From contig WJMD01000123.1 of NCBI GenBank assembly GCA_014728125.1, positions 1-32,773 of the forward strand: a DNA stretch of 32,773 bases. Reading direction: 5' to 3'. The notes beneath the pieces are model-generated. The model saw only the letters and a list, made by a program, of their open reading frames with translations. It was not told the DNA's origin and did not search any database. Position numbers and translations under genes: made by a program. Source of the stretch: Candidatus Effluviviaceae Genus V sp. (GTDB lineage Bacteria; Joyebacterota; Joyebacteria; Joyebacterales; Joyebacteraceae). Of the stretch, positions 5,642 to 32,773 are shown in pieces (the first letter of the stretch is position 1; each line of letters opens with the position of its first letter).

Positions 5642-7963
5642 TCAGTCGCCCTCGGGCAGCAGAACGGCCCCCGACATCGGTTCGAGCTCGACGGCGACCG
5701 AGGCCCCGGCCGGGCCCGCGATGACCGGAACGATGCTCCCTGAGAGGGCCTCGACCACGCTTCCGTGGTCCTCGACCACCGGAACCTCCACCGACACCGC
5801 GGTCGGTCCGGCGTTGAGGACGACGTAGGCGACGTCGTCGTCCAGGCTCCTGCGGTAGGCGAAGACCCTGCCGTCGCTGACGAGCGTCTCGAAGTCGCCC
5901 CTCGAAAAGAGCGGGTGCGACGTCCTGATGGCCGCCAGCCTTCTGACGTGGTCGTGGACGTCGACCCGGACGGGCTCCGTCTCCCACGTCCACCGGAACG
6001 GACGACGGCAGTCGGGGTCGCCCCCGCCCTCCATCGCGATCTCGTCGCCGTAGTAGATCGTGGGCGCGCCGACGTAGGTCATCGAGAAGAGCATCGCGAG
6101 CTTGAGCCGGTCGACGTCTCCGCCGCAGTTCGTCAGGAAGCGCGGCGTGTCGTGGCTCCCCAGCAGGTTCATCTGTGCGCGCACGCCCTCATCCGGGTAG
6201 ATCAGCCGCCCGGGCGCAAGGGCGCGGTCGAACTCAGCCGCGTCCATGTCGCCGCTCGCGATGAACCCGAGCACCGGGTCCCGGAAGTAGGCGTAGTTCA
6301 TGACCGCGTCGTAGTAGCGCCCGTTGACCCACTCTGGCGACGGCCCCCACAGCTCGCCCACGATGTAGGCGTCCGGGTCGACGGTCCGGACCCGTTCCCG
6401 GAAGAGCTCCCAGAACCAGAACGGTACCTCGCCGGCGACGTCGAGGCGGAACCCGTCGACGTCGGCCTCAGTAAGCCAGTAGACGGTCGCGGCGAGCAGA
6501 TGCTCGACCACCGGCCAGTTGACCTGCGCGTCCGTGATGTCCTTGACGCCCTGCTCGTCGGGGTTGTCCCGGGCGAGGTCGAAGTTGAGGTTCGGCATCC
6601 AGCCGAAGCCCCACCAGCAGTCGTAGTAGTCCTTCGCGTTCGGGGGCGGGTTGACGCCCTCGCCGGGGAGCGGCCACTCCCTCCACTCGTACCAGTCCCA
6701 GTAGGGCGACTCGGGACCCCGCTCGCGCGTGTCCTGGAACGCCCAGAAGGTGTGCCCGGTGTGGTTGTATGCGAGGTCCATGATGACGCGGATGCCGCGC
6801 TCGTGAGCCGCGTCGACGAAGTCGGCGAACTCCTGGTTCGTCCCGAAATGCGGGTCGAGCCGCATGTAGCTGACGGCGTCGTACTTGTGATTGCTCTGAG
6901 ACTCGAAGAGCGGATTGAAGTAGATGACCGTGACGCCGAGGTCGGCGAGGTAGTCGAGGTTCTCGCGGACGCCGGCGATGTCGCCGCCGTAGAACGAGTT
7001 CCAGTCGGGCTTCCCGTCGGTGCGGTACGGGCTCTTCGAGAGCCCCTCCACATCGTACCAGTCATCGACGAAGTGGAAGTAGACGTCGTTGGTCTTCCCG
7101 GAGGCCGGGAGGTCGGTCAGTCCCTCGTAGTACCACTCTGAGAAATCCTGGTCGTTCGACGCGTCACCGTTGGCGAAGCGTTCCGGGAAGATCTGATAGA
7201 AGATGCCGTCCTTGGCCCAGTCGGGTGTCGCGAAGACCGGGAACGCCTCCGCGTCGAAGACGAACGTACCGGCCGCTTCGCCGGTCTCGGCAAAACCGCC
7301 GGGTCCGAGCCAGAGCTCGGCGTCGCCGTCTGTCAGGGTGAACGCATAGTCGAACCGGGTGCCGGTCGCGGCCGTCCTGACCTCGGCCTCGAGGTAGTCA
7401 AAGAGCCCGTCGGAGTCGACGCGTTCCATGGGCACCGACGTGCTTCCCCGCGCTCCCTCGATGACAAGTGCCGCATCCGAGATATCGCCTGTCCAGACCC
7501 TCGTCCTGAAGGCGACCGTGCCGTCGCGGGCGACCGAGACCTCCCACGCGTGCCTGCCGTGCCCCAGCTGGAACGTCGTGATGACGCCGTCGCCCCGCTC
7601 GAGCGCCACGTCCTCGAAGCGCTCGTCGACCACGACGACCGAGTTCTGCCCGCCGTAGCCGTCTGGATGGAAGTCGTCGGCGGTCTCATCGGTGATCCAG
7701 TTCCCGTCGGCCACGAACTTGTACTGATACCGGCCGATCGGCAGGAGCAGCGTCACCTCGAAACGCCCGTCGACCTCTTCCATCGGAGTCGCGTCCGTGC
7801 TCCAGTTGTTGAACTGCCCGGCGAGGTAGACCTGTGACGGCGCACCGTCGGGCTCGTAGACGAACGGCACCTGCTTGAGGGCCCCCGCGTGCACCGGGCC
7901 GGCGGCCGTCGCAATGCCGACGAATACGAGCGCCGCGAGCGCGATGAACCGAACCTGTCGCAT
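5642..7963 (-). CDS. Secreted GH13 alpha-glucan hydrolase, neopullulanase/cyclomaltodextrinase-like
   Basis: 773 residues. An N-terminal signal peptide (about 1-26, ending VHA) is followed by an E-set/CBM48-like module (about 30-110) with QVYLAGQFNNWS and YQYKFVADGNW, then a CBM34-like N-domain (about 115-240) and a GH13 barrel. Catalytic residues are visible: nucleophile D508 in GFRLDVA, general acid E537 in IVGELWG, and D605 in GSHDTPRF. Region I is DLAYNH. The GDEIAMEGGGDPDCRRPFRW stretch is typical of neopullulanases and cyclomaltodextrinases. It should hydrolyse alpha-1,4 (perhaps alpha-1,6) glucans outside the cytoplasm. The ATG at 7963 is chosen over a GTG at 7972 because it is better spaced from GGAGGAAGG. 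The N-terminal E-set module makes it longer than typical cytoplasmic family members. Confidence 0.93.
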   Translation of the reverse strand: MRQVRFIALAALVFVGIATAAGPVHAGALKQVPFVYEPDGAPSQVYLAGQFNNWSTDATPMEEVDGRFEVTLLLPIGRYQYKFVADGNWITDETADDFHPDGYGGQNSVVVVDERFEDVALERGDGVITTFQLGHGRHAWEVSVARDGTVAFRTRVWTGDISDAALVIEGARGSTSVPMERVDSDGLFDYLEAEVRTAATGTRFDYAFTLTDGDAELWLGPGGFAETGEAAGTFVFDAEAFPVFATPDWAKDGIFYQIFPERFANGDASNDQDFSEWYYEGLTDLPASGKTNDVYFHFVDDWYDVEGLSKSPYRTDGKPDWNSFYGGDIAGVRENLDYLADLGVTVIYFNPLFESQSNHKYDAVSYMRLDPHFGTNQEFADFVDAAHERGIRVIMDLAYNHTGHTFWAFQDTRERGPESPYWDWYEWREWPLPGEGVNPPPNAKDYYDCWWGFGWMPNLNFDLARDNPDEQGVKDITDAQVNWPVVEHLLAATVYWLTEADVDGFRLDVAGEVPFWFWELFRERVRTVDPDAYIVGELWGPSPEWVNGRYYDAVMNYAYFRDPVLGFIASGDMDAAEFDRALAPGRLIYPDEGVRAQMNLLGSHDTPRFLTNCGGDVDRLKLAMLFSMTYVGAPTIYYGDEIAMEGGGDPDCRRPFRWTWETEPVRVDVHDHVRRLAAIRTSHPLFSRGDFETLVSDGRVFAYRRSLDDDVAYVVLNAGPTAVSVEVPVVEDHGSVVEALSGSIVPVIAGPAGASVAVELEPMSGAVLLPEGD

Positions 7964-7992
7964 GGCATCCACCTTCCTCCATCAGAGACGAC

Positions 7993-9286: not shown

Positions 9287-9448
9287 CTAGTCTACAGGCT
9301 CGAACTGGTCCTTCGCCGCGCCGCAGACCGGGCAGACCCAGTCGTTCGGCAGATCGTCGAAGGACGTTCCGGCGTCAACGCCGCTCCCGGGGTCACCCTT
9401 CTCAGGGTCGTAGACGTATCCGCAGACTGTGCATCTGTACTTCTTCAA
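9287..9448 (-). CDS. Rubredoxin
   Basis: 53 residues, the standard size of a free rubredoxin. The two iron-binding knuckles CTVCG (Cys6, Cys9) and CPVCG (Cys39, Cys42) are intact, with the usual [10 protein letters not shown] and the DLPNDWVCP segment between them. The start is a TTG at 9448 with GGGAGG 7 nt upstream; this gives the canonical N-terminus MKKYRC, whereas longer starts add an unrelated Arg-rich stretch. The protein carries single electrons in the cytoplasm. Being between a diiron protein and a FAD reductase, it most likely passes electrons from NAD(P)H to the ferritin-like proteins for peroxide or oxygen detoxification. Confidence 0.96.
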
Positions 9449-9526
9449 CCGGCCACCTCCCGTTGCGCGAGCCGTCCCGTGCGGCCGGGGCATCCCGGCC
9501 GTCCGGCCCGGCCTTCTCCTCTTCAG

Positions 9527-10018
9527 CTACTTCCTGACCTCTTCGAGGCGCTTGCTGATCTCCACGACGTGCCGCTTCTCCTCCTCGACGAGCTCAGCGA
9601 GAGCTTCCTTCGCGGCGGGCTTCGTCGCAGCGTGCATCGCCTCTGTGTAGTACAGGACCGCGTCCTTCTCGACAGACAGTGCGAGTTCAAGAGCGCTCTC
9701 TGGGTCGAACTCGCGGTCGCTGTACTTCGCCATCTCCTCGATACCCTTGAAGATGCCGCCGTCGACGATCGAGCACACGTAGGCGGACACGTCCGTGTCC
9801 ATCTCCGCGGGCCTCGACCCCATCCCGCCGGCTGTCTCGAGCTCCTTCGATTCAAAGAGCTTGAGGTGCCCCTTCTCGTCCTCCGCCAGCTTCTGGAAGA
9901 CGGCCTTCGTCTCGTCGTCCTTCGCCTTCTTCGCCATCTTCGTGTAGAACTCGAGGCCGGCCTGCTCGATGCACATGCCGACGCGGAAGACCTCATCCTC
10001 GTTCAGGTACTCGATCAT
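9527..10018 (-). CDS. Rubrerythrin-like diiron protein lacking a rubredoxin domain
   Basis: 163 residues. Two helix pairs each supply Glu and ExxH ligands: EQAGLEFY with EDEKGH in the first half, and SVEKDAVLYY with EEEKRH in the second. This is the four-helix ferritin-like diiron fold of the rubrerythrin family. The C-terminal rubredoxin domain of classical rubrerythrins is absent, but a free rubredoxin is encoded 78 bp downstream, which would provide the same electron route in trans. The ATG at 10018 has GGAGGT at good spacing. Expected role: reduction of hydrogen peroxide in the cytoplasm. Fe storage is a less likely alternative. Confidence 0.88.
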   Translation of the reverse strand: MIEYLNEDEVFRVGMCIEQAGLEFYTKMAKKAKDDETKAVFQKLAEDEKGHLKLFESKELETAGGMGSRPAEMDTDVSAYVCSIVDGGIFKGIEEMAKYSDREFDPESALELALSVEKDAVLYYTEAMHAATKPAAKEALAELVEEEKRHVVEISKRLEEVRK

Positions 10019-10106
10019 GAAGCACCTCCGTGGCGGACGGCTCCCGCCGCCCTCGATAATGGACACCGTGCCCGCTCGCGCCGGGTGCGGTGCCCGCAAC
10101 GACCTC

Positions 10107-10559
10107 CTAGTTATCCGTAAGAACGTGCTCGTCGTACTCCCGCTCGAGCGCCAGCTTGTGCCGGGACTCCTCGTGAGCGAGGTTCGCGAAGAGCTCCTTG
10201 AGCTCGGGCTCTGTGGCGTTTGATGCAAGCATCTGGTAGAGGTTGTGCGCCTTCTCTTCCCGCTTCATCGCCACCGTCAGAACATCCTGATAGTCCATGT
10301 CCGGGGAGATCTGCACTGAGTCGGTGTAATCGGCGATCCTGAGGTCCGGGACCTCGTCGACGCGCGCCCAGCTGGCCTCGCCCGCCTGGACCTCGAGCAG
10401 TCTGCGCTTGTGGCCCTCCTCCTGCCGCGCCAGGGACAGGAGCATGTCGCGCACATTGGAGCGCTTCACCATCTCGGCGGCCACCGAATATGTGTCGACG
10501 GCCTCCTGTTCCTTCTGGATGGCGAAGTCGATGATCTCGCTGAAGCGCGTTTCCGCCAT
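10107..10559 (-). CDS. Ferritin-like diiron protein, first gene of the rubredoxin operon
   Basis: 150 residues with the same duplicated diiron pattern: KEQEAVDTY with QEEGH in the first half, REEKAHNLYQ with HEESRH in the second. It is related to but distinct from the following rubrerythrin-like protein, so the operon holds two paralogous diiron proteins. The ATG at 10559 follows GGGAGG by 9 nt. A strong sigma70-type promoter lies directly upstream. The gene is followed after 88 bp by the second diiron gene. Likely a peroxide- or oxygen-handling protein; no rubredoxin domain is fused to it. Confidence 0.85.
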   Translation of the reverse strand: MAETRFSEIIDFAIQKEQEAVDTYSVAAEMVKRSNVRDMLLSLARQEEGHKRRLLEVQAGEASWARVDEVPDLRIADYTDSVQISPDMDYQDVLTVAMKREEKAHNLYQMLASNATEPELKELFANLAHEESRHKLALEREYDEHVLTDN

Positions 10560-10608
10560 GTGAACGTGCCTCCCTGCCTGCGTCACGGGCCTTGCATGCG
10601 GTCCGTAG

Positions 10609-10637
10609 AGGATAGCCAAGGCCCACGGGGCCGTCAA
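10609..10637 (-). promoter_or_regulatory. Sigma70-type promoter of the diiron/rubredoxin operon
   Basis: On the minus strand TTGACG (10632-10637) is separated by exactly 17 bp from TATCCT (10609-10614), about 50 bp before the first start codon of the operon. Confidence 0.75.
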
Positions 10638-10642
10638 CAAGG

Positions 10643-10671
10643 AACCCCCGAGCGCTCGCGCGTCGGGGGTT
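10643..10671. terminator. Inverted repeat just upstream of the diiron operon promoter
   Basis: A 9-bp stem (10643-10651 with 10663-10671) encloses an 11-nt GC-rich loop. It is 5 bp upstream of the -35 box. It could insulate the operon from minus-strand transcription arriving from the gene-less region, or be a regulator site. Confidence 0.45.
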
Positions 10672-11278
10672 CGTCCTGTGGCACCGGGCCGCGTCGACCC
10701 TGGGCGGGGCCGACGCCGTTTCTAGAGGGGCCTCCGGGGAGCACGGTCAGAGGCAAGAGCTGGGCTGCGGCTGACGCTTCTTGGCACTCTTTCTAGCCCA
10801 CCCGGACTTGACGAACTCCCAGAGGCCCCGTGTACTCCGAACAGCAAAACGGCCGGACAGGAAGACCCGCCGGCCGTGTTCGTCGTCGATTCGTGTGTGT
10901 CGAGGAGAGGGACGTTATGCGGTCGAAGGGATATGCCAGACGACACCGGGTTCCGGCGATGCAGTCCGAGAGGATGCGGCGCGCCGTGTGTCCGGCCGTG
11001 TCGATGAGTTCCGCCCCGACTCCCGCGGCGGGTACGAGTTGCAAGGATGTTGGTGTCATGACAGTGGTGCAGGCTCCGATCCCGAGCAATCGTCGACGTC
11101 GCAACGGCGAGTCCGGATGTCGCGTTCGCTCACTGTCAACTGTTACCATACGCTCAGGCCGACGGTCAAGCGATTATGAAGTGCGGTTGTCAAGACCAGG
11201 GCCTATTGGTGAACAACCCTCAGAGCTCGTTCGCCGACCGCTCCTCTCCCCCGCATGCTGCAGACCGCCCGTCCTTGC
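10672..11278. other. About 600 bp without a convincing gene
   Basis: Several frames are open here but all encode Arg/Ser/Pro-rich, low-complexity chains without a good start, as expected of chance frames in high-GC DNA. I looked for tmRNA, RNase P RNA, SRP RNA and tRNA signatures and saw none. The region contains a terminator-like hairpin on the minus strand (10849-10877), a TGTCATGACA palindrome (11054-11063) and AT-richer patches around 11134-11180. An unannotated small RNA is possible; nothing more can be claimed. Confidence 0.5.
10849..10877 (-). terminator. Possible minus-strand intrinsic terminator in the gene-less region
   Basis: An 8-bp stem (10849-10856 with 10870-10877) with a 13-nt loop is followed on the minus strand by TTTTG. 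No minus-strand gene precedes it, so it may end an unrecognised transcript starting around 11130-11180. Confidence 0.4.
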
Positions 11279-29823: not shown

Positions 29824-30489
29824 CTAGCCGCGGAACCGGCGGCGGACGAGAGCGCCGACACCGACGAGCCCTGTGCTCAGAAGCAGCCAGGTCGAAGGCT
29901 CGGGCACGGGCGACGTGTCGCCATCGTGCACCTTGATGTCGTCCACGTACCAGCCCTCGTAGTCGTTCATCAGATGGTCCATTGTGTCGAAGTAGAATCC
30001 GACGCGGACCGCGTCGAGGCCGGCGAACATGTTGAGGTCCGCCTTGAGCCCGATCCACTCGCCCTGGTCGAACCACTGCACGTCGGGATAGAGCGGGACC
30101 CACATCCCGTCTCCGGGCTTCACGACGACGTGGGCCTTATCGAAAAGATGCATCGGCTGGTTCTCGGTCTCGAGCCAGGAGTAGAAGTTCATGTAGGCCT
30201 CATCGGCGCCCGAGAGGTCGATCCACGGGGACATCAGAACGCCCCAGTTCCAGCCGACGTCATAGTCGTAGTTCGGGCCGCCGGTGTTGTAGGCCGCGGA
30301 GTACATCCCGCTGTGCGCACGGTAGGTCTCGAGATGCCAGAGGCTGAACTCCTGCCCCTCGACCTGACCGGTCGTCTCCCATCCTTCGGCGCCCGTCTCG
30401 AAGCCCTCGTGCAGGAATACGGTTGCCGACGCACCCGTCGCGAAGACAAGGCACGCCGCCATCGCAAGAACGATAGCCGTTGCTCTCAT
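29824..30489 (-). CDS. PEP-CTERM secreted protein with jelly-roll domain
   Basis: 221 residues from the ATG at 30489, with GGAGAGGAG 7 nt upstream. A signal peptide (about 1-23) precedes a beta-sandwich domain starting FLHEGFETGAEGWE and ending GWYVDDIKV, typical of MAM-like or jelly-roll modules. The C-terminus has the full PEP-CTERM tripartite signal: VPEPSTW, a hydrophobic helix, and the RRRFRG basic end. PEP-CTERM proteins are processed by exosortase (EpsH family) and usually tied to exopolysaccharide and biofilm; the exosortase lies outside this window. No enzymatic motif is visible. Confidence 0.92.
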   Translation of the reverse strand: MRATAIVLAMAACLVFATGASATVFLHEGFETGAEGWETTGQVEGQEFSLWHLETYRAHSGMYSAAYNTGGPNYDYDVGWNWGVLMSPWIDLSGADEAYMNFYSWLETENQPMHLFDKAHVVVKPGDGMWVPLYPDVQWFDQGEWIGLKADLNMFAGLDAVRVGFYFDTMDHLMNDYEGWYVDDIKVHDGDTSPVPEPSTWLLLSTGLVGVGALVRRRFRG

Positions 30490-30593
30490 GGTGCTGCTCC
30501 TCTCCGGGACCCTCTGGTCCCCGGTCGCCCTCACGCAATGTCTGAGCAAGCCAGCGTGGAGATGCTCCGGTCAAGAATACTCCATCACAGTTG

Positions 30594-30666: not shown

Positions 30667-31677
30667 CTACCGTATGAGCACAACCGTCTGCGTCTGTGCC
30701 GCTGTGGACGTGCCGTGCAGGCGGGCGAAGTAGACACCGGAGGGACAGCGGCGGCCCTCCACATCCCTTCCGTCCCAGCGGATCACGGCCTCGCCGGGCT
30801 GGGCCCTTCCCTCGAACAGCGTTGCCACGCGGCGTCCGCGAACATCGTAGATGACCACCGACACGTCACCAACCTCGTCACTCGCGAGAACGAAGCGGGC
30901 CTCGCCGCGGGCCGGGTTGGGCGTCGGAGCGGAGAGGCGCAGCGCCGCCCCGGGCGGTTCCGGCACGCCTGTCGCCGTCGCAGGGGCGAAGGCCGACTGG
31001 AGCACGCCGCGGATCACCGGGAGGTCCGACGAGCCGCTCGGGTTCCCTCCCCCGTCGGCCTGGACCCACGCGGCCACGCCCATCCGTGAGTAGTCCCACG
31101 CGGGATCTACATCGAACGATGTCAGGAACGTGACGCTCTCCCCCTCCGCGATGCTGAACGCATCGCCCTGGTAGGCCGTCAGAAACGTCTTCGCGTGGTA
31201 GGGAAGAAACGACGTGCCGTTTGAGGACGGAACGTCCTCGGCCAGGACTGCGGCGGCGGCGAACCGGGCGTTGGACACGTCCTCCTCGGCCGCGATCGAT
31301 ACGGCGAACTCGCCGACGCCGAGCTCGCTGACTTTCATCGTCAGCGGCGAATCGGCCGCGCTGTGCGCGGCGAGGTCGCTCTCCATATGCGAGACCGACC
31401 AGGGCGACGGACAGGACCGGCCGTCGCCCGCCAGAAGGGGCACGGCGGAGTTTCCGTAGTAGGATGAGCGCTGGTAGAAGAACGGGTCGGCGAACTCGTA
31501 CTGCACGAGGACGAGTTCGTCCCTGCCGTGCCTCGACTGGAACTCGTGGACCGCAACTGCGGCCTGCGGGCACGATGCTCAGTAGCGCGATGTGAAGTGC
31601 TCGTAGAGCACCGTCTTCTCGGCGGCGACGGCGCCGACGGCCACGAGCACCGCGAGCAATGTGGATACGAGCCGCAT
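30667..31677 (-). CDS. Omp28/thioredoxin-like secreted protein, predicted selenoprotein (UxxC), with FlgD-like C-terminal domain
   Basis: 336 residues from the ATG at 31677 (AGGAGA upstream) to a TAG, with one in-frame TGA at codon 33 (31579-31581). A signal peptide (about 1-19) leads directly to VLYEHFTSRY-U33-ASC36-PQAA, which matches the EEFTGxWCxxCPxA start of Omp28-like thioredoxin-fold proteins; the TGA sits exactly at the first Cys of CxxC. A cis-Pro-like AVP80 follows. The middle region is beta-rich. Residues from about 250 form a FlgD-like/type-IX-type C-terminal domain: PTPNPARGEARF, VVIYDVRGRRVATLF, CPSGVYFARL. A SECIS-like hairpin follows the TGA. Read conventionally this would be a broken gene, a 32-codon fragment plus a signal-less remainder. 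Expected role: periplasmic or surface thiol/selenol redox protein. Confidence 0.83.
31549..31581 (-). promoter_or_regulatory. TGA codon and SECIS-like hairpin of the Omp28-like selenoprotein
   Basis: On the minus strand TGA (31581-31579) is followed after 14 nt by GGCCGC (31559-31564), the loop AGTT (31555-31558) and GCGGTC (31549-31554): six pairs including one G-U. The loop starts 20 nt after the TGA and has G in its second position, as described for bacterial SECIS elements. An outer 5-bp helix (TCGTG with CACGA) can close it, leaving a 6-nt bulge on the 5' side. Confidence 0.6.
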
Positions 31678-31796
31678 CGTCTCTCCTGTGGTGTCCGAAC
31701 GGTCCGGGACGGGCGGCGGTCGGTGGCAGGGCCGCCTTGTCGGTCGGCAGAGTGCGTGCGTCCCGACGCGGTCCCACCAACGTGTGTGCAGTGCCC

Positions 31797-31825
31797 AGAA
31801 TATCACACGCCTGCGGCTTCATCAA
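31797..31825 (-). promoter_or_regulatory. Promoter of the predicted selenoprotein gene
   Basis: TTGATG (31820-31825) and TATTCT (31797-31802) are separated by 17 bp on the minus strand, about 120 bp before the ATG. An active-looking promoter argues against a decaying pseudogene. Confidence 0.72.
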
Positions 31826-31885: not shown

Positions 31886-31942
31886 GTGTGATGCGGGCTC
31901 ACGATGCGTGCCGCCCGCAACAACCTACCGAAGGGAGTCCTG

Positions 31943-32773
31943 ATGGAATACGACCCTGACATGATGGTGCGGCCGCGCCGTCTGCGACTGCCCTCCTTCA
32001 AGGAAGGCGCTGTCCGGTGGGTCGTCATCGGCATCGTGGCCATCATCCTGCTCTCGACGACGTTCTACTCCGTCGCAACGGACGAGGTCGGCGTCGTCAA
32101 GCGCCTGGGCGCCTACGTTCGCACCGCCCAGCCGGGCCTGCACATGAAGCTCCCGTTCGCCATCGAGCGGGTGCAGAAGGTGCGCGTCAAGCACGTGTAC
32201 AAGCTGGAGTTCGGGTTCGCCACCGAGCGGCCCGGCGTGCGGACCGTCTACCGCCGGGGCGACTTCAGTGACGAGTCCCTCATGCTGACGGGCGACCTGA
32301 ACGCCGCCGTCGTCGAGTGGATCGTGCAGTACCGGATCCAGGACCCTCTCAAGTACCTCTTCAAGGTCCGGGAGGTGCCCGAGACGATCCGCGATGTCAG
32401 CGAGGCGACGATGCGTCTCGTGGTCGGCGACAGGACGGTCACCGAGGTTCTGACGGTCGGGCGCCGCGAGATCTCCGATCGTACTCAGCAGGAGATGCAG
32501 AAGCTGCTCGACGAGTACGAGACCGGCATCCAGGTCGTCACCGTCAACCTTAAGGACGTCAACCCGCCGGACCCGGTGAAACCGTCGTTCAATGAGGTCA
32601 ATCAGGCCAAGCAGGAGCGCGAGCAGCTGATCAACGAGGCCTGGGCGGAGTACAACAAGGAGATCCCTGCGGCCGAGGGCGAGGCCCAGCGGATGATCCG
32701 CGACGCCGAGGGCTACGCGCTGGCGCGCGTCAACCGGGCGCAGGGCGACGCAGAGCGGTTCCTTGCGCTCTAC
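31943..32773 (+). CDS. hflK: HflK-like SPFH-domain protein, FtsH protease modulator (3' end outside window)
   Basis: 277 codons are visible and the frame is open to the window edge. A short cytoplasmic N-terminus is followed by one membrane helix (about 26-42, VVIGIVAIILLSTTFY) and an SPFH/band-7 domain: TDEVGVVKRLGAYVRTAQPGLH is the family hallmark. VQYRIQDPLKYLF and the VVGDRTVTEVLTVGRREI region match HflK, and VVTVNLKDVNPPDPVKPSFNEV (about 200-221) is diagnostic of HflK rather than HflC. HflK and HflC form a membrane cage around FtsH and limit its proteolysis. hflC would be expected just downstream. The ATG at 31943 follows AAGGGAGTCCTG. Confidence 0.94.
   Translation, partial: MEYDPDMMVRPRRLRLPSFKEGAVRWVVIGIVAIILLSTTFYSVATDEVGVVKRLGAYVRTAQPGLHMKLPFAIERVQKVRVKHVYKLEFGFATERPGVRTVYRRGDFSDESLMLTGDLNAAVVEWIVQYRIQDPLKYLFKVREVPETIRDVSEATMRLVVGDRTVTEVLTVGRREISDRTQQEMQKLLDEYETGIQVVTVNLKDVNPPDPVKPSFNEVNQAKQEREQLINEAWAEYNKEIPAAEGEAQRMIRDAEGYALARVNRAQGDAERFLALY

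Follow-up and report, generated by a model that had tools for sequence, protein, structure and literature searches.

The window is a stretch of 32,773 nucleotides that makes up contig C123; the genome, assembled in 190 contigs, measures 2.52 Mb and is 97.6% complete. A minus-strand frame of 337 codons contains two stop codons, TGA at codon 33 and TAG at codon 337, and no others, which bears out the claim of an earlier sequence-only reading that a single TGA interrupts an otherwise open frame of 336 codons. The surroundings of codon 33 read VLYEHFTSRY-U-ASCPQAA, where U is selenocysteine (Sec). That reading had also described a good ribosome binding site and a signal peptide, and both descriptions hold, the second as a signal-peptide-like N-terminus judged by eye (Table 1). 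Its clean promoter is not supported: TTGATG-17-TATTCT is present but is a weak match to the sigma-70 consensus and was not reported by the promoter scan. An ordinary list of open reading frames breaks the gene in two, leaving a fragment of 32 residues and a piece of 279 residues that has no signal peptide (31506..30667), the split that had been anticipated for gene callers.

Table 1. Features of the putative selenoprotein locus (window coordinates)
Feature	Position	Strand	Basis
hflK-like (SPFH) gene, divergent neighbour	31904..32773	+	named by resemblance
Weak promoter-like pair TTGATG-17-TATTCT	31797..31825	-	8/12 consensus positions (4/6 + 4/6)
AGGAGAG ribosome binding site, 3 nt upstream of ATG	31681..31687	-	sequence
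Predicted selenoprotein gene, 336 residues, Sec at position 33	30667..31677	-	one in-frame TGA, final TAG (P0001: C written for U)
Signal-peptide-like N-terminus MRLVSTLLAVLVAVGAVAA	31621..31677	-	by eye; helix 2-12 in model
TGA as predicted Sec33, first position of UxxC	31579..31581	-	nearly all homologues have U or C here
Resolving Cys36 of the UASC motif (predicted)	31570..31572	-	C36 invariant
bSECIS-like hairpin GGCCGC-AGTT-GCGGTC	31549..31564	-	covariation among 9 sequences; Sec versus Cys hairpin comparison
Omp28/HBP35-like region, thioredoxin fold and beta domain (residues 20-235)	30973..31620	-	NCBIfam, PDB 5y1a, AlphaFold2
T9SS type A / FlgD-Ig-like C-terminal sorting domain (residues 253-329)	30691..30921	-	FlgD_ig, TIGR04183

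The hflK-like gene adjoins the selenoprotein gene, in divergent orientation, at all seven orthologous loci (L018-L024), with 73-83% protein identity. Downstream, at 29824..30549 on the minus strand, lies a gene for a secreted protein that ends in a PEP-CTERM-like stretch, PEPSTWLLLSTGLVGVGALVRRRFRG; a type IX secretion system (T9SS) is present in this genome as well. This neighbour is shared with genome G005 and is not conserved throughout; the PEP-CTERM-like relatives beside the G005 orthologue are tandem duplicates. The G005 contig (JAPEKQ010000009.1) belongs to isolate MAG173-P120, Cavimicrobium yonglei (Joyebacterota, Joyebacteraceae), which comes from anoxic sulfidic marine water and is described in a paper whose main text makes no mention of selenium (PMC13271369). 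The genome of the window groups in one family with G005, which would make it a member of Joyebacteraceae. Elsewhere in the window, ARAGORN calls a tRNA-Asp at 6945-7040 (+), antisense within a glycoside hydrolase-like frame (5642-7972, -); this call is probably a false positive.

A homologue search of 193 genomes yielded eight loci with close homologues: seven genomes of the same family have one each (G003, G005, G006, G009, G013, G016 and G019), and the eighth is a paralogue on contig C8 of the window's own genome (51% identity). All eight carry TGA at the same codon, and the protein is conserved on both sides of it at 39-50% identity. The 303 codons that follow the TGA without a further stop would arise by chance with a probability of about 0.0013 at the base composition of the window. 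As judged by sequence comparison, conservation across a TGA present in all eight homologues is stronger evidence against chance than the length of the open frame.

When wider homologues, roughly 20-35% identical, are included, column 33 of the 86 aligned rows holds U 44 times and C 40 times; some loci are represented twice, so the rows are not all independent. Among these rows the motif is UxxC in 44 and CxxC in 39, and a Cys stands at +3 in every row but one. These counts agree with the proposal that the TGA occupies the place of the leading Cys in a CxxC motif, and the column, being almost only Sec or Cys, displays no refuting pattern of non-Cys residues. Trp never occurs there in the homologues of the 86-row alignment that lack the TGA. 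A 48-member alignment has five invariant positions: E26, C/U33, C36, R70 and P80. A tree built from 77 domains requires 10 or more switches between Sec and Cys; in it the close clade is one fully supported group in which all nine sequences have U. In one Omp28-like homologue, L036 (G153:C176), the TGA is displaced by two codons (VGCGUAACL), which may reflect a shifted Sec site or an effect of the alignment.

The genome carries the machinery for Sec insertion that the sequence-only reading had proposed as a check. selA (523.5 bits) and tRNA-Sec (73.2 bits; called by ARAGORN as SeC with anticodon tca) are present, as is selD (371 bits), which has an in-frame TGA of its own in CSGUASK. selB occurs as two contig-end pieces, the N-terminal part on C80 and the C-terminal part on C6, and its central portion falls into a gap of the assembly; relatives have a complete selB. 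Across genomes, selA was found in 21 of 23 with a U homologue versus 8 of 14 with Cys homologues only (one-sided Fisher p 0.022; the comparison excludes a genome whose TGA is displaced), and it was undetected in two genomes with U homologues, G004 and G015. The selD gene is itself a selenoprotein gene (L047 1501-2427, G000:C165:5008-5934), and tRNA-Sec lies about 130 bp downstream of it.

Bacterial SECIS elements are hairpins directly after the UGA, with a loop about 16-37 nt downstream and a G early in the loop. The hairpin proposed from the sequence is present in the window and has both features: 20 nt separate the TGA from its AGUU loop, which begins at nt 21. The single sequence is insufficient as a measure of significance, with an unexceptional z of -1.33 and 17 of 200 shuffles folding as well, and the minimum free energy structure from RNAfold favours a shifted register within a longer stem. 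Comparative tests were used instead. Paired changes in homologues, for example GGCATC-AGTT-GATGTC, fix the register, in which 87% of cells pair across the nine sequences of the close clade; slid registers pair in only 26-59%. The covariation score is 0.361 versus a shuffled mean of 0.149, and none of 500 shuffles scores as high. This helix is missing from two of the nine sequences, L023, which has only a weak hairpin in the energy scan, and L024, which forms a strong but different one.

Moreover, the best hairpin after the TGA has a mean energy of -8.9 kcal/mol in 42 Sec genes versus -4.4 kcal/mol at the corresponding place in 36 Cys genes (Mann-Whitney p 3.7e-8, a nominal value because the genes are related), and codon-shuffled z-scores give the same outcome. 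Cys homologues mostly lack the hairpin seen after the codon in Sec homologues. The loop CAGTTG recurs in post-TGA hairpins of L056, L064, L072, L083 and the close clade, starting at about nt 18, 21 or 35, and is perhaps a preferred SECIS loop.

The Omp28-type thioredoxin domain that had been recognized from the sequence is found again by NCBIfam matches, by a sequence profile that detects PDB 5y1a (E 2.8e-8) and by structure prediction. An AlphaFold2 model built on the 48-member alignment (pLDDT 87, pTM 0.69) places a thioredoxin-like N-terminal part, a beta domain and a tail in that order, with Sec33 immediately preceding the helix that comes first in the mature protein. Confidence is mostly above 90 in residues 20-235 and lower in the tail. 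The best PDB match in Foldseek is again 5y1a, the Porphyromonas gingivalis protein HBP35 (E 2.4e-12, TM 0.51/0.54). The FlgD-like surface-sorting tail of the sequence-only reading likewise scores above cut-off, with Pfam FlgD_ig at residues 265-323 (34.3 bits, cut-off 27) and the NCBIfam T9SS type A sorting domain TIGR04183 (25.4 bits, cut-off 23; 28.6 in the genome scan). The genome has 82 TIGR04183 tails above cut-off, this one included. The presence of a T9SS translocon was judged on SprA (516 bits), which was found together with neighbouring stretches.

HBP35 resembles the predicted selenoprotein in its signal peptide, thioredoxin domain, beta domain and T9SS C-terminal domain, and it is the best fold match over the whole length. 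It differs in having Cys in place of Sec in its CxxC motif, and identity with the model is 13%; the transfer of activity therefore rests on fold and motif. HBP35 reduces insulin via two active-site cysteines and complements an Escherichia coli dsbA mutant (PMC2907840), and it is exported by the type IX secretion system (PMC3120885). Heme binding by HBP35 belongs to its own C-terminal part, residues 135-344. The likeness to the Omp28 outer membrane lipoprotein (NF033782 / PF11551) lies in the CxxCP motif region (34.5 bits, residues 11-58). Unlike Omp28, the protein scores below the cut-off of 150, has no lipobox that could be seen and carries both Sec and a tail; one relative, L026, passes the Omp28 Pfam cut-off.

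The closest described selenoproteins are those of GOS_C, a hypothetical protein reported in 2008 from 74 Sec sequences with a Trx-like fold and without functional evidence (Zhang and Gladyshev, PMC2398784). GOS_C is now NCBIfam NF045500, Omp28-related selenoprotein (table of PMC13188914). Shared with it are the thioredoxin-like fold, Sec at the first position of UxxC, Sec/Cys homologue pairs and a SECIS-like hairpin. In contrast to GOS_C, the sequences studied here form a separate clade, so far in one family only, whose members carry a T9SS/FlgD-like tail and lie beside hflK. The NF045500 match spans residues 16-207 at 28.2 bits, far below the cut-off of 200, and strict membership was rejected. 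Because of this score, the group is classed from its sequences as a subfamily of its own within a known selenoprotein type, all of whose members so far have Sec. The domain combination is already known with Cys, in HBP35. The view that it was undescribed is thereby corrected: P. gingivalis HBP35 has the same arrangement, and catalogues have listed UxxC selenoproteins related to Omp28 since 2008. Literature searches that paired selenoproteins with Omp28 found no paper, and those linking selenoproteins with type IX secretion gave a single, unrelated match.

These lines of evidence make it very probable that the locus is a functional selenoprotein gene in which UGA at codon 33 is read as Sec, as the sequence-only reading had proposed; they comprise the machinery in the genome, the Sec/Cys column and the covarying SECIS-like hairpin. 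Ribosomes would read the codon with the help of SelA, SelB, SelD, tRNA-Sec and the hairpin directly after it. If instead the TGA were a real stop, the gene would be a pseudogene or the product of a sequencing error and its remainder would not be made, a reading that fits the two pieces given by ORF calling and the fragmented assembly of 190 contigs. It is highly improbable and was rejected on the eight homologues, in seven other genomes and one paralogue, that keep the TGA at the same codon between conserved flanks; the near-exclusive occurrence of U or C at this column in wider homologues and the Sec machinery also argue against it. Slighter still is the chance that UGA specifies a different amino acid, for instance Trp in a code 4-like manner, or is read by near-cognate suppression. 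The in-frame continuation would suit this reading, as readthrough alone does not name the inserted residue, but the homologues without TGA have Cys and never Trp, the genome has a tRNA-Sec with a tca anticodon and hairpins accompany the TGA homologues. TGA is moreover an ordinary stop here, ending 14 of the 22 likely genes of the window, which led to the rejection of a global reassignment.

The signal peptide would export the product, which is predicted to fold as an Omp28/HBP35-type thioredoxin domain followed by a beta domain, and the FlgD-like C-terminal tail would direct it through type IX secretion across the outer membrane. Export to the surface is probable. A periplasmic oxidoreductase of the Dsb/Omp28 type, in which the FlgD-like domain is a structural Ig domain only, would account for FlgD_ig, a general Ig-like fold, being the best Pfam match of the tail, for the TIGR04183 score lying little above its cut-off (25.4 versus 23 bits) and for the lower model confidence of this region. 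Such a protein is rather unlikely, given SprA, the many above-cut-off T9SS tails of the genome and a domain order and fold like those of the T9SS cargo HBP35. With surface export as the preferred reading, Sec33-x-x-Cys36 would act at or outside the cell surface, most likely as a thiol-disulfide oxidoreductase like the CxxC of HBP35 in vitro; by this analogy, oxidoreductase activity is quite likely.

On balance, the evidence favours an HBP35/Omp28-type subfamily, so far uniformly Sec, that is placed outside the cell by the T9SS in Joyebacterota, a phylum for which no report of Sec use was found in the literature searched. If this is true, the protein would be a selenoenzyme outside the cell, whose substrates in anoxic sulfidic water might be extracellular disulfides, polysulfides or heme, and its subfamily would be one of several Sec/Cys lineages with T9SS tails that current selenoprotein models miss. 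No member of NF045500 above cut-off was found among 290 sampled genomes, yet many of them have Sec homologues, and T9SS tails occur in most of those that were scanned at full length; the selenoproteomes of T9SS phyla are therefore probably undercounted. The thinly described GOS_C/Omp28_seleno group would widen to take in many Sec and Cys proteins, most of them without a name, that bear type IX tails and whose Sec-encoding genes standard gene callers would split at the TGA.

The repeated switches between Sec and Cys among near relatives lend themselves to studying the advantage that Sec brings to an exported protein of the thioredoxin type. At L055 (G123:C186:36000-46500), four tandem Omp28-like genes have N-x-x-C, U-x-x-C, U-x-x-C and C-x-x-C motifs, a natural Sec/Cys/none series. 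The genome studied here has two adjoining Cys-type Omp28-like genes at G000:C97, about 9300-10900 (L050, L051, L054).
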